DNA from: Synechococcus sp. RS9909
GTDB lineage: Bacteria; Cyanobacteriota; Cyanobacteriia; PCC-6307; Cyanobiaceae
Direction: 5' to 3'
Length of the DNA: 64,000 nt
Assembly: GCF_014279595.1 (NCBI RefSeq)
Contig: NZ_CP047943.1
Span: 2,478,422-2,542,421 of the forward strand
Under the pieces are notes generated by a model. It saw only the letters and a program-made list of their open reading frames with translations. It was not told the origin of the DNA and made no database searches. Positions within the stretch are counted from its first letter, which is position 1. Each line of letters opens with the position of its first letter. A program made the position numbers and the translations under genes. Shown here in pieces: positions 4,058-60,256 of the stretch.

Positions 4058-4116
4058 GCAACGCCTCAGCCCTGCTGCCCTCACCGGAACCGCTCTGGGA
4101 TGCTGCCACCGCGGCG

Positions 4117-4650
4117 GTGATCGGCGGCGACGGCCCCTGGGATCTCCCCGGTCCCTGGCGCCTGCTGTTGCTGGGAGACGGCAGCCCCACCCGCCATCTG
4201 CGCCTGCTCACAGGTCATCCGGTGGCCGTGCGCCTGATCGCCATGGAGGCCGACGTCACCATGGCAGGGGCGCCACGGGAAGTGCGGGAGCTGCGTCACC
4301 CCCTCCTGCGGCGCCAGGTGTGGCTCGCCTGCGGCGGTCAGACCCTGGCCTGGGCCGAGAGCTGGTGGAATCAGGCCGAGGCCGACCAGCACCTGCAGGA
4401 CCGCGACCTGCCGATCTGGTTGAGCCTCACCCAGGGGCGTTCGGAACTGTTCCGCGAGGTGGATGGGCTCGCCTTGGTGCAAAGCCCCTGGCTGGAGACG
4501 GGCTTCGCTGCAGGCGGTCCGTTCTGGAGCCGCCACTACCGCTTCTTTCGCCAGGGCCGGGAGCTGACGGTGATCCGCGAGGTGTTCAGCCCTGCTCTGG
4601 AACAGTGGCTGGGCCCAGCACCGCGGGATGCACTTCACCTGACGTCATGA
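4117..4650 (+). CDS. Chorismate-lyase-like protein (DUF98/UbiC-type)
   Basis: The 177-residue ORF resembles cyanobacterial chorismate-lyase-like proteins. These release 4-hydroxybenzoate from chorismate, the head group for plastoquinone. Supporting features are LLLLGDGSPTRHLRLLTG at the N-terminus, the REVRELRHPLLRRQVWLACGG core and a C-terminal VIREVFSP segment. The GTG at 4117 is the first conventional start. The frame stays open and reads plausibly (LLPSPEPLWDAAT) back to a CTG at 4054 that overlaps the preceding stop. The true protein may therefore start there and be about 198 residues long. Confidence 0.65.
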   Translation: MIGGDGPWDLPGPWRLLLLGDGSPTRHLRLLTGHPVAVRLIAMEADVTMAGAPREVRELRHPLLRRQVWLACGGQTLAWAESWWNQAEADQHLQDRDLPIWLSLTQGRSELFREVDGLALVQSPWLETGFAAGGPFWSRHYRFFRQGRELTVIREVFSPALEQWLGPAPRDALHLTS

Positions 4651-4740
4651 AGGAATGGATCGGATTGTCCCGTTTTCCTCTTGACAACTTGCGGTGAAAT
4701 GTGCTGGGCCCATCATGGTGGCAACCGCCCACCCGATCCG

Positions 4741-5169
4741 ATGGCACACCGCACCTGGCTGAGCCTCTCCGAACTGGGGCAGCTCTTCGGCATTTCCGCC
4801 CGTCACTGTGAACGGGCCCTCGATCAGGCGGGCTGGCTCGACCGCCACGGCCGGCCCACCCCGGCCGCCATCGAAGCCGGCGCCGCCTCGCTTCAGGGCC
4901 CCCAGTGTCACCCCCGTGGATGTCGCTGGAACGGAGAGGTCTGCCGTGACCTGCTGATAACCCGGGGGTACAGGCCTGTCAGTCGTGATCAACACGTGAA
5001 GCAGTGGGTGGCTCTCCTGGAGGCGATGACCGAAGGCTCAGCCGCCATCAATGCCACCGCCGATCAGATGGCGGAAGATCTTCCCGCTGAGCTGGTCGAC
5101 GACGTCAATGCCCAGCTCAATCAGCGCGGCTGCCCCTATCAGGCCAGGCGCAGGGCTTCCGCCTGCTGA
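4741..5169 (+). CDS. Conserved hypothetical protein with helix-turn-helix-like N-terminus
   Basis: The protein is 142 residues from the ATG at 4741. Residues 5-35 (WLSLSELGQLFGISARHCERALDQAGWL) look like a small winged-helix or HTH. The centre carries three Cys (QCHPRGCRWNGEVC) that could bind a metal, and the C-terminus is acidic and helical. An in-frame ATG at 4681 would add 20 poorly conserved-looking residues and is less likely. The 3' end overlaps the convergent DUF1269 gene by 31 bases. The function is unknown; a nucleic-acid-binding role is only a guess. Confidence 0.65.
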   Translation: MAHRTWLSLSELGQLFGISARHCERALDQAGWLDRHGRPTPAAIEAGAASLQGPQCHPRGCRWNGEVCRDLLITRGYRPVSRDQHVKQWVALLEAMTEGSAAINATADQMAEDLPAELVDDVNAQLNQRGCPYQARRRASAC

Positions 5170-5660
5170 CGGGCCTTCTCCAACTGCTCCCGCAGGCTCT
5201 CCTCATCGGCATGGCTCAGGCTCGTCTGAATCAGACGGGCGTGGGGAGCATGGCGACGCAGCTTCTCGATCACCCGATCGGCCGTTGCCTCACGCACCAA
5301 AAGGGCCAGCGCCGCCGTTCCCTTCGGCAGGGTCTCACCGAGATCGCGCAGGAACTGATCATTGATGCCCATGTCGCTGAGGGCTCCCGAAGCGGCACCA
5401 GCACCGGCTCCCACCGCCAGACCGAGCAGGGGATTGGCGAAGAGCAGACCCACCAACATGCCCCAGAAGCTGCCGCCCACCGCACCGGCAGCCGCCAGGT
5501 TGATCGCCTGCCGCAGGTGGACGTGACCATCCTCGGCATGCTCGAGCACCACCGCATCCTCCAGCGCAATCAGATGCTCCTGCTGAATGCCCACCAGCTC
5601 ACGGCGGACGTCTTCAGCCTCCTCCACCTTGGGGAAGCCCACCACCACAAGATTGCTCAT
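5139..5660 (-). CDS. DUF1269-type membrane protein
   Basis: This 173-residue protein starts with a ferredoxin-like fold segment (NLVVVGFPKVEEAEDVRREL). A Gly/Ala-rich hydrophobic hairpin follows at about residues 53-90 (AAAGAVGGSFWGMLVGLLF, LAVGAGAGAASGALSD), then a second soluble half with a helical, charged C-terminus. This is the typical layout of DUF1269 proteins, which are probably inner-membrane associated and of unknown role. The coding end overlaps the convergent gene upstream by 31 bases. Confidence 0.8.
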   Translation of the reverse strand: MSNLVVVGFPKVEEAEDVRRELVGIQQEHLIALEDAVVLEHAEDGHVHLRQAINLAAAGAVGGSFWGMLVGLLFANPLLGLAVGAGAGAASGALSDMGINDQFLRDLGETLPKGTAALALLVREATADRVIEKLRRHAPHARLIQTSLSHADEESLREQLEKARQQAEALRLA

Positions 5661-5707
5661 CGGGCCATCGCAGGTGTCCGAAGACTAAGCACACCAACAC
5701 ACAGTGC

Positions 5708-6253
5708 TCAGTCGCGGCGGCGACTCGACCGGGGCAGGGAACGACGACTGGAGGGCGCCGGCTCCACTGGCGCCCGTCGGGGTTGGGAACGCTCCACGGG
5801 TCGCTGCCAACGGTCCACCCGAAAGTCGCTCTCCTCGGGCCAGGCGTCATCTGGCCAAGTTTCATCCCGGGTCACAGCTGGCTGAAGCGACTGCGGCGTG
5901 GGGGGAATCCGGGCCGGTTGCCGCCTGGAGATCGCCTCCAGCGGACGTTTGGCCCTGGACGGCTGCTTGGCCCTGGACGGCTGTTTGGCCCTGGATGGCG
6001 AAGCCATCGATCGTTGCGGTGACATTGACGTCGGCAGAGGTGCATCGGACTGCCAGACGTCACGGCCGTCATCCTCTTCATCGAGCAACCAATCGATCTT
6101 GTCGCCCACCCAGCGACCCACTGCGTCGAGGCGGGCCGACGTTCCCCTGCCGGAGCGGCGACCGGGGCGTGTGCCAGCGACACCATCCACGAACTGCCGT
6201 CCGGTTTCAATCCACTGATCGAGGCGCTGGGCCTGTTGCCGTCTTGCATCCAT
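5708..6253 (-). CDS. Basic low-complexity protein, unknown function
   Basis: The protein is 181 residues long. The N-terminal 60 residues are helical and more ordered (LDQWIETGRQFVDGVAGTRPG, VGRWVGDKIDWLLDEEDD). The remainder is Arg/Pro/Ser-rich and probably disordered, including a threefold repeat of SRAKQP. It starts 10 bases after the small membrane ORF and follows the sprT-like gene, so the three form one minus-strand operon. No family is recognised. The disorder and charge would suit nucleic-acid or surface binding, but nothing decides this. Confidence 0.7.
   Translation of the reverse strand: MDARRQQAQRLDQWIETGRQFVDGVAGTRPGRRSGRGTSARLDAVGRWVGDKIDWLLDEEDDGRDVWQSDAPLPTSMSPQRSMASPSRAKQPSRAKQPSRAKRPLEAISRRQPARIPPTPQSLQPAVTRDETWPDDAWPEESDFRVDRWQRPVERSQPRRAPVEPAPSSRRSLPRSSRRRD
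5948..6001 (-). repeat. Three tandem 18-base repeats encoding SRAKQP units
   Basis: Three adjacent, nearly identical 18-base units (5948-5965, 5966-5983, 5984-6001) lie inside the basic low-complexity protein. The period is a multiple of three, so copy number can change without breaking the frame. Confidence 0.85.
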
Positions 6254-6262
6254 GCCCTGACG

Positions 6263-6367
6263 TTACCGACGCCGGCGGCGCAACCAACACTCCCGTCGCC
6301 AACCCACCAGGGCGATGCTGATCCCTGCGCACTGCAGCACCAGAAGAAACAGATCCATCTCAGCCAT
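6263..6367 (-). CDS. Small single-span membrane protein (34 residues)
   Basis: The ATG at 6367 opens a 34-residue frame, MAEMDLFLLVLQCAGISIA followed by LVGWRREC and a run of five arginines. It has one membrane helix and a strongly basic cytoplasmic tail. Its start overlaps the stop of the sprT-like gene by 8 bases, and its stop lies 10 bases before the next gene. That is the spacing expected of a translated operon member. The function is unknown. Confidence 0.5.
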   Translation of the reverse strand: MAEMDLFLLVLQCAGISIALVGWRRECWLRRRRR

Positions 6368-6959
6368 GCCGGCACTCGGCGGCCTGGTCAGATGCTGGAT
6401 CCCCACCCCCATAGGGCTCGAAGCGCAACAGACAACTGGAGTGCCAACGGCCGCCATGGTGACGCTCGCAACAGCGGCGACAGGCCGCCTGGCGCAGACG
6501 CCGCCGATAGGGCAGCTGATGACCGCAGCGGGGACAGACCGCAAGCCAGCGGGGCGGCGTGACCGGCACGGGAAATCGATGGCGGATGCTCACCACGAAG
6601 CGATCCTGTGCAGCGTTGATCGCGGCCATCCGCGCCCGGAACTGGGGTCCGTGGCTCTCGCGTCGGCCCAAGACCAGATCCACCCAGGCATGAATCATCT
6701 CGTGGCAGAGCGTGCTTTCCGTCGCCGCCCTCGGCAAAGGCTCCAACAAGGGCCGAGACAGGACGATCTCGCGACCGATGGGGGGTGCCACCGCAGGGCC
6801 GCGGCGATACAAGCCGGCGGTCCGGGTCATGCGTCCATCACTCCAGCGCACCGCCAACAGAGGGTGCGGCCCCCGCACCAGGCTGCCGTCGAAGTGCTCA
6901 CGGTTCAGACGGTGAAACAGGGGGAGCAGGGGCTCCAGAGACACAAGACAGGGCGGCAC
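6360..6959 (-). CDS. SprT-like zinc metalloprotease-domain protein
   Basis: This 199-residue protein carries the zincin motif HEMIH at residues 86-90, with a further His at 103, matching the SprT-like fold (HExxH plus a distal His). A C-terminal zinc ribbon is formed by C142, C145, C160 and C163. SprT-family proteins are cytoplasmic metallopeptidases related to SPRTN, which clears DNA-protein crosslinks in eukaryotes; bacterial members are poorly studied. It is the first gene of a three-gene minus-strand run. Confidence 0.85.
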   Translation of the reverse strand: MPPCLVSLEPLLPLFHRLNREHFDGSLVRGPHPLLAVRWSDGRMTRTAGLYRRGPAVAPPIGREIVLSRPLLEPLPRAATESTLCHEMIHAWVDLVLGRRESHGPQFRARMAAINAAQDRFVVSIRHRFPVPVTPPRWLAVCPRCGHQLPYRRRLRQAACRRCCERHHGGRWHSSCLLRFEPYGGGDPASDQAAECRHG

Positions 6960-7012
6960 CGGTGGTCAGCAGTCAGTCAGACTCACTGCGCATCGTCAAC
7001 TGCGTGCCGCGG

Positions 7013-9527
<2,515 letters not shown>

Positions 9528-9559
9528 CACAGAAACTCAAGCCCACCGGCCCTCTGCAC

Positions 9560-9835
9560 CTAGCGATAACCGGGCCGATTCACTGGACCACCGGCATTCG
9601 GCCCCACCCCTGGGCCGGCAGCCGGACGCAATCCCGCTCCCGGCGCTCCGTAGCCCACACCCGGGGAAGGATTGACCACCGGTCCGCCCGGACGGGCATC
9701 GACACCCACTGGCTCGACCTCCACACAGCCTGGGGGATAGCCGGGGCCGGTGCACACCACCGCAGCCTTGAGAGGACTCGCGGCCAGCACACTCAGCCCA
9801 GCCAGCGCACCGGCGAAAGAACCACATCGACCCAT
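9560..9835 (-). CDS. Small secreted Gly/Pro-rich protein
   Basis: This 91-residue product has a short N-terminus (MGRCGS), a hydrophobic core (FAGALAGLSVLAAS) and a likely cleavage region after LKA, so it looks exported. The mature part has two Cys (VVCTGPGYPPGCVEV) followed by a Gly/Pro/Val-rich tail. I recall similar small secreted proteins in picocyanobacteria, but no function is known. The low complexity leaves some doubt that the whole frame is translated. Confidence 0.55.
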   Translation of the reverse strand: MGRCGSFAGALAGLSVLAASPLKAAVVCTGPGYPPGCVEVEPVGVDARPGGPVVNPSPGVGYGAPGAGLRPAAGPGVGPNAGGPVNRPGYR

Positions 9836-9907
9836 CCAGACCTCGACATCTCAGAGATCTCCATCCTGACCGCGGCAGGGGCGACGCACCATCCATAACC
9901 TGACGGA

Positions 9908-10081
9908 ATGGAACAACCTGCCATCCACCGCTGGATCAAAACCGAGTGCGGCCGGGCGAAGTACGCGGAGCTGGCAGCCAGGCCGGGCCCCTTGGCACGG
10001 CTACGTCTGGGCTGGTTTGTGCTGATCGCGGCGCTGCGCGACTGGGCTCTAAGCAATCACCCCGGCCGCTCTGCCTCCTGA
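9908..10081 (+). CDS. Small hypothetical protein (57 residues)
   Basis: The ATG at 9908 opens a 57-residue frame with an ordered look: IHRWIKTECGRAKYAELA, a basic middle (LARLRLGW) and a hydrophobic helix (FVLIAALRDWALSN). It overlaps the convergent DedA-type gene by 25 bases. The composition resembles short picocyanobacterial hypothetical proteins, but the support is only the frame and its helical pattern. Confidence 0.4.
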   Translation: MEQPAIHRWIKTECGRAKYAELAARPGPLARLRLGWFVLIAALRDWALSNHPGRSAS

Positions 10082-10773
10082 AGCGCCTTGCGGGCCGCCC
10101 GGCCCACCAGCCACACCACCGCCACCGTGGCGAGAATCCCGGTGATGCGCAGCGCCCAGGTGGCGGGATCGGCCTCGCCGCTGAGCACCTCGCCGAAACG
10201 GGCCACGTCGCCGGCGAGCGCTCCTAACCCGCAGAACAGGATCGTGCCCGGCAGGATGCCAATCAGACCGATCGTGTAATCGCGCAGGCTCACCTCACTG
10301 AGGCCATAGGCCAGGTTGAGCAGCGAAAAGGGGAAGGCCGGTGAGAGGCGGGTGAGCAGCACCAGCTTCAGGCCCTCACGGCTCACCGCCCGTTCCACCG
10401 CCTGCAGCTTCGGCAGTCCGGCGAGGCGGCGCTGCGCCCATGCCCGCAGCCAGGTGCGCCCCAGCAGAAAGGCCGCCTGCGCGCCGAGGCAGGCGCCCAC
10501 AAACACGATCAGGGTCCCCCACCAGGGGCCATACAGGGCACCCGCGAGCATCGATGCCCACACCCCTGGCAACAACAGCGTCACCCAAAGGGCATAGAGG
10601 GGCACGAACGCAACAGCACCGACGGGAGACTGCAAGGCGGGCAGCAGCGCCTGCAAGATCTCGGCCAGGGACACGGCTTGCAAACTCACTGGCTTTCCAA
10701 GCGGGGGAAACAACCCACGCTGCCAGGCCCAGAGCAAACAGTTGCCAGCACCGTGGTTGACCGATAGGGTCAC
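10057..10773 (-). CDS. TVP38/TMEM64 (DedA-like) family membrane protein
   Basis: This 238-residue integral membrane protein shows the SNARE-associated (VTT/DedA) domain: hydrophobic helices flanking GALYGPWWGTLIVFVGACLGAQAAFLLGR, then LTRLSPAFPFSLLNLAYGL and IGILPGTILFCGLGALAGD. The R-S-P-F and G-x-L-P-G signatures are those of TVP38/TMEM64 proteins. Relatives have been linked to lipid scrambling or undecaprenyl-phosphate flipping; the substrate here is unknown. The first 20 residues are less ordered, so the true start may be slightly downstream. Confidence 0.85.
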   Translation of the reverse strand: MTLSVNHGAGNCLLWAWQRGLFPPLGKPVSLQAVSLAEILQALLPALQSPVGAVAFVPLYALWVTLLLPGVWASMLAGALYGPWWGTLIVFVGACLGAQAAFLLGRTWLRAWAQRRLAGLPKLQAVERAVSREGLKLVLLTRLSPAFPFSLLNLAYGLSEVSLRDYTIGLIGILPGTILFCGLGALAGDVARFGEVLSGEADPATWALRITGILATVAVVWLVGRAARKALQEAERPG

Positions 10774-10827: not shown

Positions 10828-11898
10828 GTGGAGTTTCTGCAGACCACCTCAGGCCTGCTGACCGGCACTGCGCTGCTCGGCGGCCTGTGGTTGATGCTGC
10901 AGCTGCTCGGACGCCATGGCCGCAACCTCGGCAACAAACTCGCCCTGGCCCTACGCCGTCCAGTGCTGATCGGTCTGGGCCTCACCCTCTACGCCACCTG
11001 GCTGACCCAGCTGATCAATCGCGAAGTCGCTCTGGTGAGCCAGCAGATGCTCAACCGCTTCTCACTCACATTGCTGATCGGCACGATCAGCTGGGCCAGC
11101 CTGAACGTGGGCCATGCCTTCATCCGCTCGGGGCAGATGCGCCGCTGGCTAGCGATGAAGGACCCCAAGGATCAGGCCATGCTGATCAATTTAATGGGGA
11201 GGATGTACACCATTCTCGCGCTGCTGTTCACCGCAGCGGCCCTGATGGTGAACTTCGGCATCCCTTCGGCTGCAATCGCCACCATGCTCGGCGGCGCTGG
11301 CATCGGCATCACCTTCGCCACCCAGCAGGTGAGTCAGAATTTCCTTTCCGGCTTCATGCTGTTCTTCAATCGTCCGTTCAAGGAGGGCGACTGGATCTGC
11401 GCCGATTCCTTTCAGGGAACGGTTGAAAAAATCGGCTGGTATTACACCAGGGTGCAAACATTTGACCGCAGGCCGCTCTTCATCCCGAACTCGGTATTCG
11501 CGACAAGCCCGATCGAGAATCCGGGCCAGATGTACAACCGCAGAATTCTGGCCAATATCAGCCTGCGCTACGAAGACCTCGGCCGCATCGCCGGCATCAC
11601 CACCGATGTGCGCCAGCTGCTTGAACAGCATCCCGACATCGATCAGAAGCAGACCATCTTGGTGAACTTCAACGAATGGGATGCCTCCTCGATCAACATG
11701 ATGGTGTATTGCTTCACCAAAACAACGGTGTGGCGAGAGTGGCTCGACATTCAACAATCCATCTTCCTGGAGATCGCTGCCATCGTGCAACGCACCGGTG
11801 CTGACTTTGCTTTCAACTGCACCACGCTGTACCCAGCGCCGGAATCCGACGGAGCCGCACTGTCCAACCTGATCGCTCGCCGAAATCAGGCGGCCTGA
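10828..11898 (+). CDS. MscS-family mechanosensitive ion channel
   Basis: This 356-residue protein has N-terminal membrane helices, then the MscS pore helix TM3 (SAAIATMLGGAGIGITFATQQ). The conserved beta domain follows (FMLFFNRPFKEGDWICA, GTVEKIGWYYTRVQTFDRRPLFIPNS), then an alpha-beta C-terminal domain (RRILANISLRYEDL). Such channels open on membrane tension and release osmolytes during hypo-osmotic shock. It is a compact MscS without the long periplasmic extension. A second MscS relative lies at 16897. Confidence 0.92.
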   Translation: MEFLQTTSGLLTGTALLGGLWLMLQLLGRHGRNLGNKLALALRRPVLIGLGLTLYATWLTQLINREVALVSQQMLNRFSLTLLIGTISWASLNVGHAFIRSGQMRRWLAMKDPKDQAMLINLMGRMYTILALLFTAAALMVNFGIPSAAIATMLGGAGIGITFATQQVSQNFLSGFMLFFNRPFKEGDWICADSFQGTVEKIGWYYTRVQTFDRRPLFIPNSVFATSPIENPGQMYNRRILANISLRYEDLGRIAGITTDVRQLLEQHPDIDQKQTILVNFNEWDASSINMMVYCFTKTTVWREWLDIQQSIFLEIAAIVQRTGADFAFNCTTLYPAPESDGAALSNLIARRNQAA

Positions 11899-12110
11899 GC
11901 TCGTCGCGAACGCTGGCCAGGGCGTAGGCGTCTGGATGCGGTACGACGGGCGGCAACGGGCCAGAGCCTCCTCGGCTTCAAGGTTCTTGGCATTGAGGCG
12001 GGATGAGCCGGCCATCTCCAGGGAGAGCGAGCTCGAATCATCACCCAGAAACTGCCGACCAGCTCGCAACCTGCAATCGCCTTAAGCTGAACCCAGAACG
12101 CGTCGGGGAG
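11899..12110. other. Intergenic stretch without a recognisable gene
   Basis: About 210 bases lie between the MscS gene and the Uma2 gene. The Uma2 frame stays open through the last 108 bases (possible GTG/ATG start at 12003), but the predicted residues there are disordered and not family-like. I see no tRNA, hairpin terminator or repeat. Confidence 0.5.
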
Positions 12111-12764
12111 ATGACACTCGCCCCACCACCATCCACTGCCGCAGCTCCTGCGGCACCCCTGCCACCTCTGCTGCTCCCTCCCGCTCTGCGCCTCAGCCCC
12201 GAGCAGTTCGCCCTGGTGTGCGACGCCAACCCCGAAGCGGTGCTGGAACTGGCGGCGGATGGCCAGCTGATCGCAATGACTCCCACCGGCGGCGACACCA
12301 GTGCGCGCAACAGCCTCCTGATCACCCGGTTGCAGATCTGGGCCCTGGCTCAAGGGGGCTGGAGGGTGTTCGACAGCTCCGGTGGCTTCCGCCTGAGCGA
12401 TGGCTCGGTGCTCAGCCCGGATGCGTCCGCCGTGCGGCTGGAGCGCTGGCAGGCCCTCACGCCAGAGCAGCGGCGCGGCTTCCCGCCGCTCTGCCCCGAT
12501 CTGGTGATCGAACTGGCCAGCCCCAGCGACCAGGGGCCTCGTGGCGCGTCGAGACTTCGCCGCAAGATGGGCAACTACCTCACCAATGGTGCCCGACTGG
12601 GCTGGTTGCTGTTTCCCGAGCAGCAGGCCGTGGAGATCTGGCGGGCTCCTGCCGACCCCGCAGCAGCAGCGACACCCGAGCGGTTAGCACCGGCAACCCT
12701 TCTGGAGGAGGGCGAACTGCTGCCCGGGCTGCGGTTGGACCTTTCGGAGTTGTGGGCGGTGTGA
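12111..12764 (+). CDS. Uma2 family (DUF820) restriction-endonuclease-fold protein
   Basis: The protein is 217 residues from the ATG at 12111. It has the Uma2 core: LSPEQFALVCDANPEAVLELAADGQL, MTPTGGDTSARN, a PD-(D/E)XK-type active site at LSPDASAV with CPDLVIELASPSD, and the later LRRKMGNYLTNGARLGWLLFPE helix-strand unit. The family is very common in cyanobacteria, often as solitary genes, and its biological role is unsettled. A defence or transposition role has been proposed because of the nuclease fold. No partner gene is evident here. Confidence 0.88.
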   Translation: MTLAPPPSTAAAPAAPLPPLLLPPALRLSPEQFALVCDANPEAVLELAADGQLIAMTPTGGDTSARNSLLITRLQIWALAQGGWRVFDSSGGFRLSDGSVLSPDASAVRLERWQALTPEQRRGFPPLCPDLVIELASPSDQGPRGASRLRRKMGNYLTNGARLGWLLFPEQQAVEIWRAPADPAAAATPERLAPATLLEEGELLPGLRLDLSELWAV

Positions 12765-53313: not shown

Positions 53314-53988
53314 TCAAGCCACCAAGCGGTTGAGCATCGGCAATTCCGACAGCTCATCCCTCCACTCCTGGGCCCAGAGGGCCTGACTGCGCTCATACAC
53401 CTCCATCAACTGCTCCACGGCGCACTCGTGGAAATCAACGCGCAGATCCAACAGCGGAAAAGCAGCTTCACCACTCACCTGCACCGCTGCTGAGGTGCAG
53501 AAGGGAGAGCGATGGTCACCGCCCGCCGCTTCCCCGGCCTGCAGAGCCATCATCAGACGGCGGCCCAGTTTCAAGCTGGGGTCGCTGGTGAGAAAGGCCT
53601 GTTCCATCGCCGCCAACACACCCTCATCCACCAAGCAATTGCCGGCAACAGACAGATCACGCTGATGGCGATGCCCTGCCCAAGGGCCGCAATCCTGCCC
53701 CGTCCAACAGGCCGTGCGACCGTCCAGGTCGATCAGGTGAAACTGACGCCGGTCTCGGTGCTGGTCATCCGCCAGCAAGCTGGCCAGAACGCTCTCGGCA
53801 TCGGAACTCTGCTCAAGGCGCTCAAGGCCACAAATCCCCAGATACGGATTGGTGTGGGCCTGGGTGGCGACAGCACCAACTCCGGCGCGGATGTGAGGCA
53901 CGGTGGATCCAACAGCCAGATGACAGGTGGCCACAGCCACGCCGAAGCGACCGTTGCTGGGGTCCCGGGCCAGGATCGAAAAGGTCAC
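53314..53988 (-). CDS. DUF1028 family Ntn-hydrolase-like protein
   Basis: The protein is 224 residues from a GTG at 53988 that overlaps the upstream stop (GTGA). The N-terminus reads TFSILARDPSNGRFGVAVATCHLAVGSTVPHIRAGVGAVATQA, the DUF1028 signature. After Met removal this would place Thr2 as a possible N-terminal nucleophile. DUF1028 proteins have an Ntn-hydrolase-like fold and often sit in operons with amidohydrolases; their reaction is not settled. Here the gene ends the operon of carbamoyltransferase, AsnB-like and M20 hydrolase genes. Confidence 0.85.
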   Translation of the reverse strand: MTFSILARDPSNGRFGVAVATCHLAVGSTVPHIRAGVGAVATQAHTNPYLGICGLERLEQSSDAESVLASLLADDQHRDRRQFHLIDLDGRTACWTGQDCGPWAGHRHQRDLSVAGNCLVDEGVLAAMEQAFLTSDPSLKLGRRLMMALQAGEAAGGDHRSPFCTSAAVQVSGEAAFPLLDLRVDFHECAVEQLMEVYERSQALWAQEWRDELSELPMLNRLVA

Positions 53989-55274
53989 GGCAGCTGACGG
54001 TCGAGCCGCAGCAACGTTTCCAGCAGCACCGCGGTGCCCGCCCAGCACTGCTCGTCACTGGTGAACTCAGCAGCGGAATGACTCAGGCCGCCCCGGCTGG
54101 GCACAAAAATCATGCCCATCGGCCAACGTCGGCCAACCTCCTGGGCATCGTGGCTGGCGCGGCTGGGGAGATGGCTGTGGGACAGGCCGAGATCGGCTGC
54201 GGCCTCAGCGATCGTGGCCATCACCACAGCGTCAGCAGGGGTGGGATCAACGCTGAACTGGGGGTCAACCGCAATCGGGCAGCCGGTTTCAACACCGATG
54301 CGTTCCACCTGATGCATCAACTCCTCAACCAACTGATCGAGAACGGTGGGATCCACATCCCTGAGGTCAACCGTCAGGGCGACTGCGCCGGGGACAACAT
54401 TGGCTGCATTGGGCCAAACCTCCAGTCGACCCACCGTCGCCACCGGATCTCCGGGATGACGGGAAGCCATGGCCTCGATGGCAAGAACAAGACGCGAGGC
54501 CGCCACGAGGGCGTCTTGTCGCAACCCCATCGGTGTGGTGCCGGCGTGATTGGCCTGGCCTTTCACATTGATGCTGAACCGACGCTGACCAACAACGCCC
54601 TCCACAACACCGATGGCATCACCGCGTTGCTCAAGAACGCCACCCTGCTCAACATGCAACTCCAGGAAAGCGGCATAAGCATCATCGGAGCGGCGCGCCG
54701 AGGCCAGGGAGGGCCAGTGGCCGCCGATGCGCGCCAGGTTGTCCTGAATCGGCTGACCATTGCTGGTGGCATAACTCTCCGGGTCATCGGAGGCCGTGCC
54801 CGCCAAGCCCTTGCAGCCCACCATGGTCGACTCCTCGTCGGCAAAAGCGATCAACTCGATGCCGTGCTGCAGGCGCAGGCCCTGGTCTTGCAGCGCGCGG
54901 CAGGCTTCCAGACCGGCCAACACCCCCAGGGCCCCATCAAAACGTCCACCGGTGGGAACCGTGTCGAGGTGCGACCCGGTCACCAGGGCAGGGCGGTGGG
55001 GATCCAGGCCCTCGAGGCGTCCGATCAAGTTGCCAGCGGCATCAACACGCACCTGCATGCCGAGCTGCTTCATCCAGTGGGCCAGTAACTCACGGCCCTC
55101 CACATCCTCCGGCGAAAAACCGCGTCGACACACGCTGCCATCAGGCTTGGCGCCAATGCTGGCCAGCTGCTCAATCGTTGCCACCAAACGATCACGGTTT
55201 GGACGCGCCGCGATCTTGGCTGGCTCGACCCGCGATGCAGGGGTGGTCGGAGAAGCCGAAATGAGCGCTGGCAA
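53985..55274 (-). CDS. M20-family N-carbamoyl-amino-acid / allantoate amidohydrolase-like enzyme
   Basis: This 429-residue zinc hydrolase has the M20 metal ligands: His in GSHLDTVPTGG, Asp in GRFDGALGVLAGL, Glu in FADEESTMVG, His in ELHVEQGG and a late His in LSHSAAEF. The lid domain (VKGQANHAGTTPM) is also present. The ELHVEQG and GRFDG patterns are those of N-carbamoyl-L-amino-acid hydrolase or allantoate amidohydrolase, which release ammonia and CO2 from ureido groups. The neighbouring carbamoyltransferase suits an N-carbamoyl substrate. The specific substrate is not determined. Confidence 0.87.
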   Translation of the reverse strand: MPALISASPTTPASRVEPAKIAARPNRDRLVATIEQLASIGAKPDGSVCRRGFSPEDVEGRELLAHWMKQLGMQVRVDAAGNLIGRLEGLDPHRPALVTGSHLDTVPTGGRFDGALGVLAGLEACRALQDQGLRLQHGIELIAFADEESTMVGCKGLAGTASDDPESYATSNGQPIQDNLARIGGHWPSLASARRSDDAYAAFLELHVEQGGVLEQRGDAIGVVEGVVGQRRFSINVKGQANHAGTTPMGLRQDALVAASRLVLAIEAMASRHPGDPVATVGRLEVWPNAANVVPGAVALTVDLRDVDPTVLDQLVEELMHQVERIGVETGCPIAVDPQFSVDPTPADAVVMATIAEAAADLGLSHSHLPSRASHDAQEVGRRWPMGMIFVPSRGGLSHSAAEFTSDEQCWAGTAVLLETLLRLDRQLP

Positions 55275-55368
55275 TGCCGTGACCTTCAGTTCAAAGGAAC
55301 CAACACCTTCACCTGAACGGACCGATCGGCCTGTAGCTAGCGCAACGATTTAACCCTGATCAAAGAAT

Positions 55369-57393
55369 TCAAACGGGCATCAGCACGCGCCAGCCCAGGC
55401 GGTCCGCCTCCCGGCGGGCCAGGGCTGGCATGTCTTCCGCCACAAACATGCGGTGCAACATCTGCACGCCCAGCAGGTGATTGATCACCGCATCCATCTG
55501 CACACGCTCTGCATCGGTGGTGGCTGGATCCTCGTGACGGGCAAACAAGGCACGCACGCCGGCTTTGCTCAACAAACCAGCGGCATCGATCGCCTCATCA
55601 CTGAGGTAGTCGTCGGCGAGCTGCTTCATCTGCTCCCACTTCTCGGGCTCCGTGTGGGCTGGCGGTGCCATGAAGGCGAACTTCTCACGCCGGTACAGCA
55701 CCTCCGGCAACAGGCCGGCCATGGCTTCCCGCAGCACGTATTTCTCGGTTTTCCCCTTGATCCGCAGCTCAGGCGGCACCTGAACCGCAACCGCGGCCAA
55801 ATGGTGATCGAGGAAGGCGGGTCGCGCCTCCATGGAATTGGCCATGTCGACCCGGTCGCCACCCCAGGTGAGGATCTGGCCCTCCAGCATGGTCTTGATC
55901 CAGACGTACTGGGCCTTGTCCAGGGCATGGCGCCCCTCCAGTTGATCCGCATCCAGCTGCTCGGCAATCGCCTTGCCCGGGGAGTAATCCTTCAACGCTG
56001 TGGCATGGGATTCCGCCAGAAGCTCCGGCACCAAAGGCGCGCAGGCCAGCCACGGCTGCAGGCAACTGGGGGTGAAGCCAACCACCGCATCAAGATCGGG
56101 GTCATCCACCTGGTTTTCAGCCAGCATTGCCCCCTTCACCAGGGCATTGGACTCTTGCAGCAGGCTTTCCCAGCTGGCGCGCTCCTCCTGCGGCAGGTCA
56201 TCGAGACCATGGAGGAACATGTCGCGGCGAAAGGCGGGATAGCCGCCAAACAGCTCATCTGAGCCTTCGCCAGTCATCACCACCTTGTAATCCACGTCGT
56301 TGACGTGACGGCTCATCAAGAACTTGGCCACCGCCAGGGTGTTGTAGATCGTTCGCTCCGCATGCCACATGGTGCGCTCCATGTGGCCATAGAGCTCCTG
56401 GCCCGAGAGACGCATCAGATCCTGCTCAGCGCCGGTGGCTTCGGCCATCTCACGGGCAATCGGCGACTCGTCGTAACGGGCGTCGTCAAACCCGATCGTG
56501 AACGCCTTCACCGGTGCCTGGCTCACGGCTGAGGCCAAGCCGAGGATCGAACAGCTGTCGATGCCGCCTGAGAGGTAACAACCCACCGGCACGTCGGCCA
56601 CCATGCGCAGTTCAACGGCCTCCAGCAAAGCCGCACGAACGGCAGCGATGTGGTCGGCTTCGGTTCGCTTCGGGTCCCGCTCGTCCTTGCGCGGAAAGTC
56701 GACGTCCCAGTAGGTGGACTCCGACACCTCCAGATGCCCATTCACCCGTTGCACCTTCAGCACATGGCCGGGCTTCACCTGATGCACCCCGGCGAAGGCG
56801 GTGGTGCCGGGAACCATGGTCTGCATCAACTGGTGAAACAGACCCTCCGAGGTGAAACGTCGCTCCACCGCCGGATGGGCGAACAGCACCTTCAATTCGG
56901 AACCGAACACCAGACCCTCAGGCGTCATCGCCCAGTACTGCGGTTTGATGCCGAAGCGGTCCCGCACCAGGTAAAGGCAGTCTTCGGACCGATCAAACAA
57001 GGCAAAGGCGAACTCACCGCGCAACAGGGGCAAGGTCGCCTCAAGGCCCTGGCGTTGATACAGCCGCAGCAGGATCTCGGAATCGCTCTTGCTGCTGAAG
57101 CGCACTCCCTGGGCGGTGAGATCAGCCCTGATTCGCTGGAAGTCGTAGAACTCACCGTTGTGGGCCATCAGCACCTCACCGTCATCGGTGAGGAAGGGCT
57201 GCCGGGCCCGTGACTCATTCAGGTCAATGATCGAAAGGCGGGCATGGCAGAAGCCAACGCCGGCCTGATCGATCACCTCAACGCCGAAGCCATCGGGCCC
57301 GCGATGGGCCTGAATCGCCGCCATGTTGACCAGCAGCTGGCGATCCACCGTCTGCTGACGGTCGGCATTGAAAACACCCCCGATTCCACACAT
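55369..57393 (-). CDS. AsnB-type glutamine-dependent asparagine synthetase homologue
   Basis: This 674-residue protein has an N-terminal class II amidotransferase domain with Cys2 (MCGIGGVF), RGPDGFG and NGEFYDF. The synthetase PP-loop is YLSGGIDSCSILGLAS and a later GEGSDELFGGYPAFRR is present. It can make amides from carboxylates with ATP and glutamine. The length and motifs fit AsnB, but many homologues use other acids. Here it follows a divergent carbamoyltransferase by nine bases in a shared operon, so its acid substrate could be something other than aspartate. Confidence 0.88.
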   Translation of the reverse strand: MCGIGGVFNADRQQTVDRQLLVNMAAIQAHRGPDGFGVEVIDQAGVGFCHARLSIIDLNESRARQPFLTDDGEVLMAHNGEFYDFQRIRADLTAQGVRFSSKSDSEILLRLYQRQGLEATLPLLRGEFAFALFDRSEDCLYLVRDRFGIKPQYWAMTPEGLVFGSELKVLFAHPAVERRFTSEGLFHQLMQTMVPGTTAFAGVHQVKPGHVLKVQRVNGHLEVSESTYWDVDFPRKDERDPKRTEADHIAAVRAALLEAVELRMVADVPVGCYLSGGIDSCSILGLASAVSQAPVKAFTIGFDDARYDESPIAREMAEATGAEQDLMRLSGQELYGHMERTMWHAERTIYNTLAVAKFLMSRHVNDVDYKVVMTGEGSDELFGGYPAFRRDMFLHGLDDLPQEERASWESLLQESNALVKGAMLAENQVDDPDLDAVVGFTPSCLQPWLACAPLVPELLAESHATALKDYSPGKAIAEQLDADQLEGRHALDKAQYVWIKTMLEGQILTWGGDRVDMANSMEARPAFLDHHLAAVAVQVPPELRIKGKTEKYVLREAMAGLLPEVLYRREKFAFMAPPAHTEPEKWEQMKQLADDYLSDEAIDAAGLLSKAGVRALFARHEDPATTDAERVQMDAVINHLLGVQMLHRMFVAEDMPALARREADRLGWRVLMPV

Positions 57394-57402
57394 CAGTCCA
57401 CC

Positions 57403-58518
57403 TCAGATCACATCCATCACGCGTTCGGCCCGATCCACCATGCAGGTGAGCAGGGCCATCCGCAGGAACACAGCTCCCCTGGCCTGGCTGAAATACCAAT
57501 TGTGGGGCGTGTCATCCATGCAGGTGCTCAGTTCCGCTCCCCGAGCTAGCGGATGGAGCACGATCGCTTCCGGCTTGAAGGGCATGTCGCGGGTGAGACG
57601 GAACCCTCCGCCGTGCACTTCATAGGAATCGCCGACCCAGGCAATGGCATTGATGTAAACCACATCCAAGTCGGGCACTTCCGCCTGCAGATCGGTGCTG
57701 GAGCGCACCTTCATCCCACATGCTTCAAGCTCCTCCAACTGTCCTGGGTCGAACAGCGGCTGCTCCGGCTCCAACCCAGGGGCATGAATCACCACCACCT
57801 CATCCACGGCCTGCGGGAACTTGGCCAGGATCCGCAACAGTGAGCGAACCGTTCTCATCCGCGAGGGAATTCCGACGATCCCAATGCGAATCCGATCAGC
57901 GGGTGCCACTTCAGCTTCAGCAAGCTTGGGGCGCCACTTGAAGATCGTGTAGAGATCCGCCATCGCCTGGGTGGGATGCTCATCGATCCCATTCCCCGCA
58001 TTGATGATGGGAATCCGCAGGGTTGACGTCATCGCATAAACCGCACCGGGATCGCTGTCCCGCAGCACCACACAATCGCCGTAGTTGTTGAACATGTGGG
58101 CGACATCTTCGAGGGATTCGCCCTTGGCGATCCCCGTGGTGGCCCTGTCGGTGATGTTGATGGAGGAACCGCCGAGGCGGTGCCAAGCGCTGTCAAAGGA
58201 CAGCCGCGTGCGCGTGCTTGGTTCGTAAAACGCGTTGATCAGAATCTTGCCGGTGAGCGGCGTGTTGTGACGGCAATAGCGGTCTGGATTGCTCTCGAAT
58301 TTCGCCGCCAGCCGAAACACCTGCAAAAGAGTCTGTGGGCGAAACGGTTGGATCGAGACCACGTGCTGATCCACCAGATCCTTCAAAGGCTCAACGTCTT
58401 CGGCAATGGCAGCCAGCAGCTCCTGGGGTTGGTTCTGCCCATAAACATCTGGCCCCATCGGCTCAAAGCGAATCTGAACCGATGACGCGTCCACAACTGC
58501 TGATTTGGCCTGTGCCAT
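57403..58518 (-). CDS. Divergent carbamoyltransferase of the ATCase/OTCase superfamily
   Basis: This 371-residue protein keeps the carbamoyl-phosphate site: STRTR at 101-105, K132, R153, H181 and Q184 (HPTQ), and R222, with HPLARGAEL near 322. By eye alignment with E. coli PyrB, the Asp-binding R229 and Q231 fall at A291 and A293 (DVVYINAIAW), so the acceptor may not be aspartate. The 50-residue N-terminal extension is also unusual. It sits in an operon with AsnB-like, M20 hydrolase and DUF1028 genes. An annotation as pyrB would be a default, not a demonstration. Confidence 0.75.
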   Translation of the reverse strand: MAQAKSAVVDASSVQIRFEPMGPDVYGQNQPQELLAAIAEDVEPLKDLVDQHVVSIQPFRPQTLLQVFRLAAKFESNPDRYCRHNTPLTGKILINAFYEPSTRTRLSFDSAWHRLGGSSINITDRATTGIAKGESLEDVAHMFNNYGDCVVLRDSDPGAVYAMTSTLRIPIINAGNGIDEHPTQAMADLYTIFKWRPKLAEAEVAPADRIRIGIVGIPSRMRTVRSLLRILAKFPQAVDEVVVIHAPGLEPEQPLFDPGQLEELEACGMKVRSSTDLQAEVPDLDVVYINAIAWVGDSYEVHGGGFRLTRDMPFKPEAIVLHPLARGAELSTCMDDTPHNWYFSQARGAVFLRMALLTCMVDRAERVMDVI

Positions 58519-58679: not shown

Positions 58680-58829
58680 TCACCAAACCCGGCCATTCCT
58701 CCACTCCACCCACCAAATCACCAGCAGCACGAGCACCGACAGCACCAGGGCGAGCTGACTGGCCACCAGCAGAAACTGAAAACCCGACAGACCAACGAGG
58801 CCGGCCATCAAAGGAAGCGTTTGGATCAT
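58680..58829 (-). CDS. Small membrane protein coupled to the symporter (49 residues)
   Basis: A 49-residue frame starts at an ATG that overlaps the symporter stop (ATGA, 58826-58829), with AAGGAGG from the end of the symporter gene as a strong ribosome site. It reads MIQTLPLMAGLVGLSGFQF then LLVASQLALVLSVLVLLVIWW and a short charged tail. It is highly hydrophobic, with one or two membrane helices. Function unknown; a symporter subunit or modulator is inferred. Confidence 0.6.
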   Translation of the reverse strand: MIQTLPLMAGLVGLSGFQFLLVASQLALVLSVLVLLVIWWVEWRNGRVW

Positions 58830-60256
58830 CCCTCCTCCTTCAGCAAGGTGAAGTCAAAGCGTTCCGGCCGCATGCGACTGCCAATCAGCATCACAACCGC
58901 CGACACGGCCGCCGAAAACACAGCAGCGCAGTAGGGCGCGATCAGCACATAGGCGAGCAGGCCCACAACGCTGCCGGCGAGCATGGCCGCGATGGCAGCC
59001 GTGCGGTTGGCCGTGCGCCAGTACAAACCGCAGGCCACCGGCCAGACCGTGGAGGCCACCAGGGCACCGGTGAAGAACAGCACCGACGCCAGCGAATCCA
59101 GCCGCGGCCAGGACAGCGCCAGGGTGACGACGGCCAACCCCACCACCATCAGCCGCGCCGCCTGCTTGAGCTGTAGGTCGCTGGCCTGGGGCCGCAACAG
59201 GCGGAAGTACACATCCTCCGCCAACAGATCGGCGGTGGATGCCAGCAACGAATCCAAGGTGGAGGTGAGCGAAGCAAACACCACCACAAACACCAGGGCC
59301 GCGCCACCGGCCCCGAGCAGATCGGCTGCCATCACAGGGAACACCATGTTCACCTGCTCGAGGGGCAGCTCACGGGCCAGGGCCACGAGGCCAATGGAGC
59401 CCGTCACCATCGGCACGCTCATCCAGGCGATTCCGCCCAAAACAAAAGAGGTCATCACCACCGAGCGCCGGCTGGCGAACACCCGGGACCACCAAATGTT
59501 GTTGTGAAACACCTCGCCCATCGAAAAGAGGGCGGAATTCCAGGCGATCAACAAGCCCGCCGGCAGCAGCAGATCCAGCCGATCGGGATGCCGGGCCAGC
59601 AAGGAGGCATGCACCTCAGGCATCGGGAATTGACGGAAGGCAAGCACCGCCACCACCGCCAGCAACACCATGATCAACAGCGACTGGATGAAATCGGTGC
59701 CAATCACGGCCCGCATCCCACCGAACAGGGTGTAGACGGTGGCAACACCAATCACCACCACCATTCCCACGTGGTAATCGAAGCCTGAAAGCGCCTGCAG
59801 CAGCAGGCCAGCACCCATCGCCTGGGTCATCAGAAAGCCCAGGGTGTAGATCGCGGTGATCAGCATGAACACCCACCAGGCCAGACGCCCGTAGCGCAGG
59901 CGAATGAAGTCGCCGCTGGTGCGCCCGTTGGGCATCAACTGCTTGATCCGCGAGGCCAGGGGGGCGAACAGAATCAGGCCAAGCCCGGCCAGGGCATAGC
60001 TGAACATGCCCCAGAGGCCGGTTTTGTAGCCGAATTCAGGGGCGAGCAGGGTGGTGTTGCCGGTGACCCAGGAGGCCATCAACGTGGCCGTACTCAGGGC
60101 CAGCCCGATGTTGCGCCCCGCCAGCATGTAGTCGTCGGCATTGCCTTGACCGCGCCGGCCCCAGGCAATCCCCAGCGCCACCCAGAGCACAGAGAACAGC
60201 ACCACCAACGCCCAGGCGATCCCGGGCTGAAGGAAGGGAACCGAGTCAGCGGACAT
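58826..60256 (-). CDS. Sodium:solute symporter (SSS family)
   Basis: This 476-residue protein has about 12-13 hydrophobic helices. SSS features include MASWVTGNTTLLAPEFGYKTGLWG near TM2-3, GFLMTQAMGAGLLLQALSGFDYHVGMVV, and FASLTSTLDSLLASTADLLAEDVYFR, the conserved TM8 region with Ser/Thr for Na+. It should couple Na+ to uptake of an organic solute. It lies between two tiny membrane ORFs and upstream of the carbamoyltransferase operon. The substrate is unknown. Confidence 0.88.
   Translation of the reverse strand: MSADSVPFLQPGIAWALVVLFSVLWVALGIAWGRRGQGNADDYMLAGRNIGLALSTATLMASWVTGNTTLLAPEFGYKTGLWGMFSYALAGLGLILFAPLASRIKQLMPNGRTSGDFIRLRYGRLAWWVFMLITAIYTLGFLMTQAMGAGLLLQALSGFDYHVGMVVVIGVATVYTLFGGMRAVIGTDFIQSLLIMVLLAVVAVLAFRQFPMPEVHASLLARHPDRLDLLLPAGLLIAWNSALFSMGEVFHNNIWWSRVFASRRSVVMTSFVLGGIAWMSVPMVTGSIGLVALARELPLEQVNMVFPVMAADLLGAGGAALVFVVVFASLTSTLDSLLASTADLLAEDVYFRLLRPQASDLQLKQAARLMVVGLAVVTLALSWPRLDSLASVLFFTGALVASTVWPVACGLYWRTANRTAAIAAMLAGSVVGLLAYVLIAPYCAAVFSAAVSAVVMLIGSRMRPERFDFTLLKEEG

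Follow-up and report, generated by a model that had tools for sequence, protein, structure and literature searches.

A candidate pathway for making and dismantling the osmolyte Nα-carbamoylglutamine 1-amide in Synechococcus sp. RS9909

The gene cluster discussed here lies on the minus strand of a 64,000-nucleotide window, bases 2478422-2542421 of the complete 2.6-Mb genome of Synechococcus sp. RS9909, a host that we take to be marine. Its core consists of a diverged relative of aspartate transcarbamylase (ATCase), or pseudo-ATCase, and a glutamine-dependent amidotransferase of the AsnB family, which are joined by an M20 hydrolase, a DUF1028 protein and a sodium:solute symporter. From the sequence evidence set out below, it is fairly probable that the cluster makes and dismantles the osmolyte Nα-carbamoylglutamine 1-amide (CGA). 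Reportedly described in 1991, CGA is glutamine with a carbamoyl group on its α-amino group and an amide at C-1. It is favored because it is glutamine plus exactly two groups, and these match the carbamoyltransferase and amidotransferase at the core of the cluster. It also draws support from the fact that the acceptor sites of both enzymes are altered, with most carbamoyl-phosphate residues and the glutaminase cysteine kept.

In the proposed route, the pseudo-ATCase would use carbamoyl phosphate to carbamoylate the α-amino group of L-glutamine. The AsnB-like enzyme would then activate the α-carboxylate with ATP and amidate it, as AsnO does in the synthesis of N-acetylglutaminylglutamine amide (NAGGN), giving a glutamine derivative with no net charge and both ends capped. 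Under falling salinity or a demand for nitrogen, the 1-amide would be removed by DUF1028 and the carbamoyl group by M20, yielding glutamine, CO2 and ammonia, and the Na+ symporter would recapture solute that had leaked.

This hypothesis was set down before the genome scan that returned Ectothiorhodospira mobilis strain DSM 4180 (L081 in our numbering of loci), in which M20, carbamoyltransferase and AsnB genes lie together. One paper gives DSM 4180T under the name E. marismortui (PMC7824335), and two others name this halophilic purple bacterium as the species reported to accumulate CGA (PMC1224877, PMC3857566); the core genes are therefore present in the type strain of a reported CGA producer. 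The gene row at this locus is MarR, M20, isochorismatase-like, carbamoyltransferase and AsnB, with sucrose synthase adjoining. Sucrose synthase (TIGR02470, 1182 bits against a cut-off of 810) adjoins the cluster in all five Ectothiorhodospira loci, as does MarR, and MarR-like genes occur in 10 of the 80 loci compared below.

Acceptor sites of the two capping enzymes

The initial annotation had placed A291 and A293 of the carbamoyltransferase, by eye, where E. coli PyrB has R229 and Q231, and our alignments bear this out. Across 86 sequences of the carbamoyltransferase family compared with E. coli PyrB, many of them near-identical Prochlorococcus rows whose counts are not independent, the position of R229 is Ala in 80, Ser in 5 and Thr in 1, and that of Q231 is Ala in 79, Ser in 4, Val in 2 and Thr in 1; the original Arg and Gln are each found in 0/86. 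The same A-I-A falls on R-I-Q in HMMER alignments with three solved ATCase sequences. The claim that the carbamoyl-phosphate residues are kept holds for most of them: S52, T53, R54 and T55 (S101 to T104 in RS9909), R105 (R153), and H134 and Q137 of the HPTQ motif (H181 and Q184) are present in 86/86, as are K84 (K132) and R167 (R222). It fails for S80, which is replaced by Gly in every sequence, as P268 is by Ala.

In ATCase, we take R167 to contact the α-carboxylate of aspartate and R229 and Q231 to contact its β-carboxylate. The retention of the first together with the loss of the other two suggests an acceptor that is an α-amino acid without a side-chain carboxylate, that is, one with a neutral side chain, and would place carbamoylation before amidation. 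The overall fold appears to be little changed. The AlphaFold model has a predicted local distance difference test (pLDDT) score of 83.1, and all 50 of the structural matches listed are ATCases (Z 31.4-34.7). The protein scores 192 bits against the aspartate carbamoyltransferase model TIGR00670, below its cut-off of 236.95. Of the four OTCace_N genes in RS9909, one is argF-like (L001), one is a true pyrB that has RLQ (L004), and the remaining two are the window gene and its second copy (L002). Pyrimidine synthesis is disfavored because Ala occupies both aspartate positions and a separate pyrB is present, and ordinary PyrB was rejected as an identity on these grounds. The earlier suggestion of a ureido or amide compound in place of pyrimidine synthesis would, as far as residues and gene content can indicate, stand.

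The AsnB-like protein shows a similar combination of kept and altered sites. The Cys2 glutaminase nucleophile is found in 77/77 sequences, and N-T-L-A/G replaces T322-T323-I-R325 of E. coli AsnB in the same 77, with Ala in 55 and Gly in 22 at the position of R325, an arginine of the aspartate site. One could suppose that the gene encodes a plain asparagine synthetase and that the carbamoyltransferase is an ATCase that diverged without taking on a particular role. The protein does pass the general model TIGR01536 (430.6 bits against 267.1), and it and its twin in the second cluster are the only strong Asn_synthase matches in RS9909, two further matches being weak. However, the loss of the R325 side chain in all sequences, the failure on the equivalog NF006949 (270.3 against 499), the presence of a true pyrB and the conservation of the pairing in both Cyanobacteria and Proteobacteria make this supposition highly improbable. 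The score on the NAGGN amidotransferase model TIGR03104 is 302.4 against a cut-off of 570.1, and NAGGN synthesis was rejected on this basis; no RS9909 gene exceeds that cut-off, but 0 of 14 control genomes pass it either. The match to the AsnB-like gene is broken into two in three relatives' loci (L099, 5830-7884; L033, 11070-13080; L009, 11126-13148), which may reflect a frameshift, a deletion or a sequencing error.

Partners, distribution and osmolyte context

Partners of the carbamoyltransferase gene were counted in the best 80 of 94 relatives' loci from one genome scan, and the conserved gene order that the initial annotation had raised for comparison proved to center on the capping pair. 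In 77 of the 80 loci, AsnB follows immediately on the same strand. Two of the three exceptions involve contig ends (L015, which meets one, and L024, with a reversed fragment of 46 residues at one), and the third is a Thiorhodospira locus (L074) that has no AsnB. M20 is found in 69 loci and DUF1028 in 32; in 45, a symporter immediately precedes the carbamoyltransferase on its strand. Within the 41 loci grouped as cyanobacterial (L006-L044, L066 and L085, with L013 and L021 bearing other labels as metagenome-assembled genomes), M20 is present in 35, the symporter in 14 and DUF1028 in 32, the latter on the opposite strand in L018 and L066; the corresponding figures for the other 39 loci are 34, 31 and 0. 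The 11 loci without M20 comprise seven that lie at a contig end (L015, L017, L024, L028, L029, L035, L053) and four long ones (L063, L070, L074, L079).

The constancy of AsnB bears on whether the enzyme could work in the opposite direction, catalyzing phosphorolysis of an imported ureide (a hydantoin product, for instance, or allantoate), the direction measured for the ureidoglycine carbamoyltransferase (UGTCase) Rxyl_2847 of Rubrobacter. Kinship with other pseudo-ATCases, the adjoining M20 enzyme, which resembles allantoate amidohydrolases, and a symporter that could import a ureide speak for this idea. Synthesis is nonetheless favored over phosphorolysis because no partner is as constant as the ATP-dependent amidotransferase and because the RS9909 genome yields no carbamate kinase above the cut-off (best arcC match 30.7 bits against 358, a strict threshold that 2 of 14 control genomes pass). 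Among the open reading frames (ORFs) beside either copy, no purine-degradation gene was recognized by eye, and Rxyl_2847 instead adjoins a carbamate kinase and an allantoinase (PMC4016543). A UGTCase-like role was rejected on the first two of these grounds and is, in our estimation, improbable.

Across the phylum sample, 16/386 genomes carry the carbamoyltransferase gene, all of them in the family of RS9909, and within that family the figure is 54/250. It was found at E <= 1e-60 in 25 of 369 gammaproteobacterial genomes, 23 of which show at least 63% identity (the query genome and one partial match included). Identity is at least 71% in the 41/47 genomes of Ectothiorhodospiraceae that have the gene, which is split in two in one of them. 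In Nitrosomonas, 4/85 genomes match, namely N. halophila, which was the source of the query, and three with relatives at 46-48%. Many of the named carriers belong to taxa that we take to be marine, halophilic or soda-lake organisms, with several metagenome-assembled genomes left unplaced. Three gammaproteobacterial loci hold distant paralogues at 35-39% identity (L094, 7212-8363; L095, 2495-3475; L096, 3857-4927). No AsnB match was found in the stretches examined, the STRTR motifs of L094 and L096 are altered, and these proteins are possibly another pseudo-ATCase subfamily.

DUF1028 seems to be replaced elsewhere by other amide hydrolases. An isochorismatase-family protein is part of the cluster in all five Ectothiorhodospira loci and in one gammaproteobacterium (L097); that of L081 matches biuret amidohydrolase best, at 71.8 bits against a cut-off of 370. 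In a Nitrosomonas variant (L093), in which the carbamoyltransferase is 41% identical, an Asparaginase_2 gene lies nearby. DUF1028, the isochorismatase-like protein and Asparaginase_2 may be unrelated solutions for removing the 1-amide. In most gammaproteobacterial loci, no such extra amidase appears among the genes common to at least four loci. The L093 locus itself (5654-10334 and 11179-12189) holds a diverged symporter-carbamoyltransferase-AsnB set at 41-51% identity, perhaps for a related solute. We lean, with some caution, toward a broader view in which the capping pair has spread as a portable osmolyte module through halophilic and marine bacteria, one amidase standing in for another in its breakdown (DUF1028, isochorismatase-like, asparaginase-2), and in which CGA is an unrecognized nitrogen-rich metabolite of the sunlit ocean.

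The osmolyte context also includes ggpS. In the family of RS9909, this gene is present in 44/54 carriers and 33/196 non-carriers (Fisher P 1e-18, odds ratio 22, uncorrected for ancestry); 8 of the 10 carriers that lack it belong to group g9, with genomes of 1.5-1.7 Mb which, like their matches, resemble Prochlorococcus. In a Prochlorococcus-like locus of that group (L090, genome G275), ggpS is on the strand of the carbamoyltransferase and stops about 0.4 kb short of it; in L035 it lies 4.2 kb upstream, and L021 has a ggpS fragment. A recombinase-like ORF, recognized by eye and with no Pfam or NCBIfam match, lies further upstream of ggpS and the cluster in L090 (2746-3915 and 6867-8354), which suggests an osmolyte island on a mobile element. 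According to PMC9361551, every marine picocyanobacterium has the symporter cluster CK_00001517, as do 11/17 brackish and 2/67 freshwater strains, ATX 6A2 being one of the last two. ATX 6A2 (L018) carries the gene cluster described here, and we infer that CK_00001517 is its symporter.

Several observations weigh against CGA as the product. The gene is family-wide in Ectothiorhodospiraceae, and DSM 4180 consequently counts as one lineage and not as a strain-specific match. Two reviews differ on its distribution: one gives CGA from a single organism only, and the other has CGA and other solutes in other purple sulfur bacteria and describes it as a possible solute of freshwater bacteria. A Raman study of E. 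marismortui extracts reports no CGA signal, CGA being described there as a minor solute and as outside the spectral library. In Thiorhodospira sibirica (L074), the carbamoyltransferase has neither AsnB nor M20 within a 21-kb locus. The words "asparagine" and "carbamoyl" are absent from the main text of six papers on salinity or osmoregulation in picocyanobacteria, namely PMC9361551, PMC9606707, PMC9948718, PMC12834511, PMC7771541 and PMC2874817, the last of which is an osmoregulation prediction for WH8102, and "asparagin" and "carbamoyl" are likewise absent from PMC3686209. What may be the identical symporter has been published as a possible glucose transporter (PMC9361551). The ggpS gene of RS9909 is far from both of its clusters, ggpS is near the cluster in only 3/91 sequences searched, the rest having no ggpS match, and the association is imperfect in both directions, with 10 of the 54 carriers lacking ggpS and 33 non-carriers having it; it is also partly a matter of shared ancestry. 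CGA costs four nitrogens, which is odd for oligotrophs. Finally, the residue pattern does not tell glutamine from other neutral amino acids.

This last point opens the way to a product of the same chemistry built on a different amino acid or for a different purpose, such as an amide of some other N-carbamoylated amino acid or a store of nitrogen mobilized beside urease. The residues predict a neutral side chain and not glutamine itself, urease-like genes (recognized by eye) adjoin the cluster in the window, and M20 and DUF1028 together would form a full dismantling route. On the other side, CGA is a natural product with exactly both caps, the type strain of its reported producer has the genes, and osmolytes are what neighbors and co-occurrence indicate. 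Around the second RS9909 copy, inspection by eye revealed two HupE/UreJ genes but no urease gene. We regard such a product as unlikely.

Gene layout, breakdown enzymes and the second cluster

ORF coordinates and families agree with those given initially, including the AsnB-like, M20 and DUF1028 genes downstream of the carbamoyltransferase. The limits proposed for the operon (53314-58518) were too narrow, as an upstream symporter and a small membrane ORF belong to the unit. In the order of transcription, the genes are as follows (window positions):

58826-60256, minus strand: sodium:solute symporter, first gene of the cluster (PF00474, 108.8 bits)
58680-58829, minus strand: single-span membrane ORF of 49 residues, overlapping the symporter stop (ATGA)
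57403-58518, minus strand: pseudo-ATCase carbamoyltransferase (OTCace_N/OTCace)
55369-57393, minus strand: AsnB-family glutamine-dependent amidotransferase (GATase and Asn_synthase), starting 9 bases past the carbamoyltransferase
53985-55274, minus strand: M20 N-carbamoyl-amino-acid hydrolase (Peptidase_M20), listed with a TTG start, the true start being uncertain
53314-53988, minus strand: DUF1028 protein (PF06267, 223.7 bits), whose GTG start overlaps the M20 stop (GTGA)

A small hydrophobic ORF of 39-51 residues with W at its end occupies the same place in 31 of the 44 symporter-bearing loci analyzed, and the 49-residue protein is likely a small symporter subunit. The proposed role of the symporter is uptake or retrieval of the solute, and the RS9909 genome has only two SSF matches, one for each copy of the cluster. 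The search for regulatory signals returned no promoter-like sites and 9 terminator-like sites against 6.9 expected. A class-I glutamine amidotransferase gene (PF00117; 51820-52578, plus strand) lies directly past the ureC-like ORF and converges on the cluster.

The M20 protein scores above the cut-offs of NF006771 and TIGR01879 (397.9 against 204). Its best-scoring family is the ErtE N-carbamyl-L-glutamate amidohydrolase NF058540, at 433.4 bits and below the cut-off of 520, and we propose that it removes the carbamoyl cap. For DUF1028, the family assigned initially was confirmed and the start has been moved. In 38/38 DUF1028 rows, including that of the window, a start codon stands directly before TFS(I/V), and the GTG at 53988 is most likely the start, giving M-T-F-S with Thr next to the initiator Met. 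The predicted structure (pLDDT 85.7) matches the DUF1028 structure 2imh (Z 30.3), followed by taspase-1 (Z 17.0, 195 residues aligned, root-mean-square deviation 3.3) and proteasome β chains (Z about 12), with Thr as residue 1 of the model aligned with residue 1 of the latter. The model accordingly has the fold of N-terminal nucleophile (Ntn) hydrolases, and its N-terminal Thr occupies the place of their nucleophile. Taspase-1, the best match after DUF1028 itself, is a member of the Asparaginase_2 family. We propose, on the strength of this model, that DUF1028 may be an Ntn-type amidase with a Thr nucleophile that removes the 1-amide.

All five main genes occur again in the genome, in unchanged order, at roughly 1678.6-1685.7 kb (L005), forming a second complete cluster that had been overlooked initially. 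Its proteins are 70-84% identical to those of the window set, and it has its own small membrane ORF. RS9909 is the only one of the 54 carriers among the 250 genomes of its family to have two copies at E <= 1e-60. The two copies differ in their closest relatives: the window carbamoyltransferase reaches 98% identity with genomes of a different genus (g3), and the second copy (genome positions 1682796-1683863) is 98.6% identical to a genome of its own genus (L100, G171). The window copy may stem from an exchange between genera that perhaps also took in the surrounding region; locus L007 is collinear with the window region for 14.5 kb (91%). Downstream of the second cluster are two adjacent HupE/UreJ genes (PF04955; L005 positions 4063-5333 and 5799-6818, about 1676.1-1678.8 kb), and an ABC-3 metal-type permease gene (PF00950) is situated between this pair and the cluster.

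Comparison with known systems

The oddity of the carbamoyltransferase was already known, and as far as we have searched, the reaction sequence and the product are new. In the accessible text of Barba et al. 2013 (PMC4016543), marine pseudo-ATCases are recognized and no reaction is assigned to the marine group; Synechococcus sp. WH 8102 and Kangiella koreensis are among those listed. The likeness is close: their Table 1 gives HPLA and an AIA/AIS/SIA motif, and the conserved gene block they describe combines a Na+ symporter with a "putative asparaginase" gene and, nearly always, with HyuC. Our sequences carry STRT, HPTQ, HPLA and AIA/AIS/SIA of this type, a few rows having other small residues (T, V). 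Table 1 labels HPLA/AIA as "pseudo-ATCase 1", whereas the text places Synechococcus in group 3. We infer that the row numbers were exchanged, because the variants seen here (AIA, AIS, SIA) fit the marine group. A literature search that left most subscription journals outside its scope found no paper linking any genes to CGA, none on DUF1028, alone or with a carbamoyltransferase, and none combining four of five cluster terms.

If correct, our reading provides a candidate pathway for CGA and a candidate reaction for the marine pseudo-ATCases. Unassigned genes of abundant marine phototrophs would become part of a proposed osmolyte pathway, and DUF1028 would gain a proposed role as a Thr-nucleophile amidase. 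It would also predict a nitrogen-rich dissolved compound in the sea that is within reach of marine metabolomics.

The RS9909 carbamoyltransferase shares with PyrB the transcarbamylase fold and most carbamoyl-phosphate residues, but R229, Q231, P268 and S80 are replaced and the loop after AIA is shorter in the alignment. With the UGTCase Rxyl_2847 it shares descent from ATCase without the aspartate-binding RxQ, as well as the proposed ureido chemistry; the difference is that Rxyl_2847 was measured working toward carbamoyl phosphate (PMC4016543). The closest working analogue is NAGGN biosynthesis (asnO-ngg), the clusters for which comprise a MarR repressor, an AsnB-family amidotransferase, an N-capping enzyme and a peptidase (PMC8070244). 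In that system, an AsnB-family enzyme amidates the terminal carboxylate of an N-capped glutamine derivative, as is proposed for RS9909. The systems differ in the N-cap, which in NAGGN is an acetyl group, with a peptide bond, made by Ngg, whereas in RS9909 it would be a carbamoyl group delivered by a relative of ATCase.

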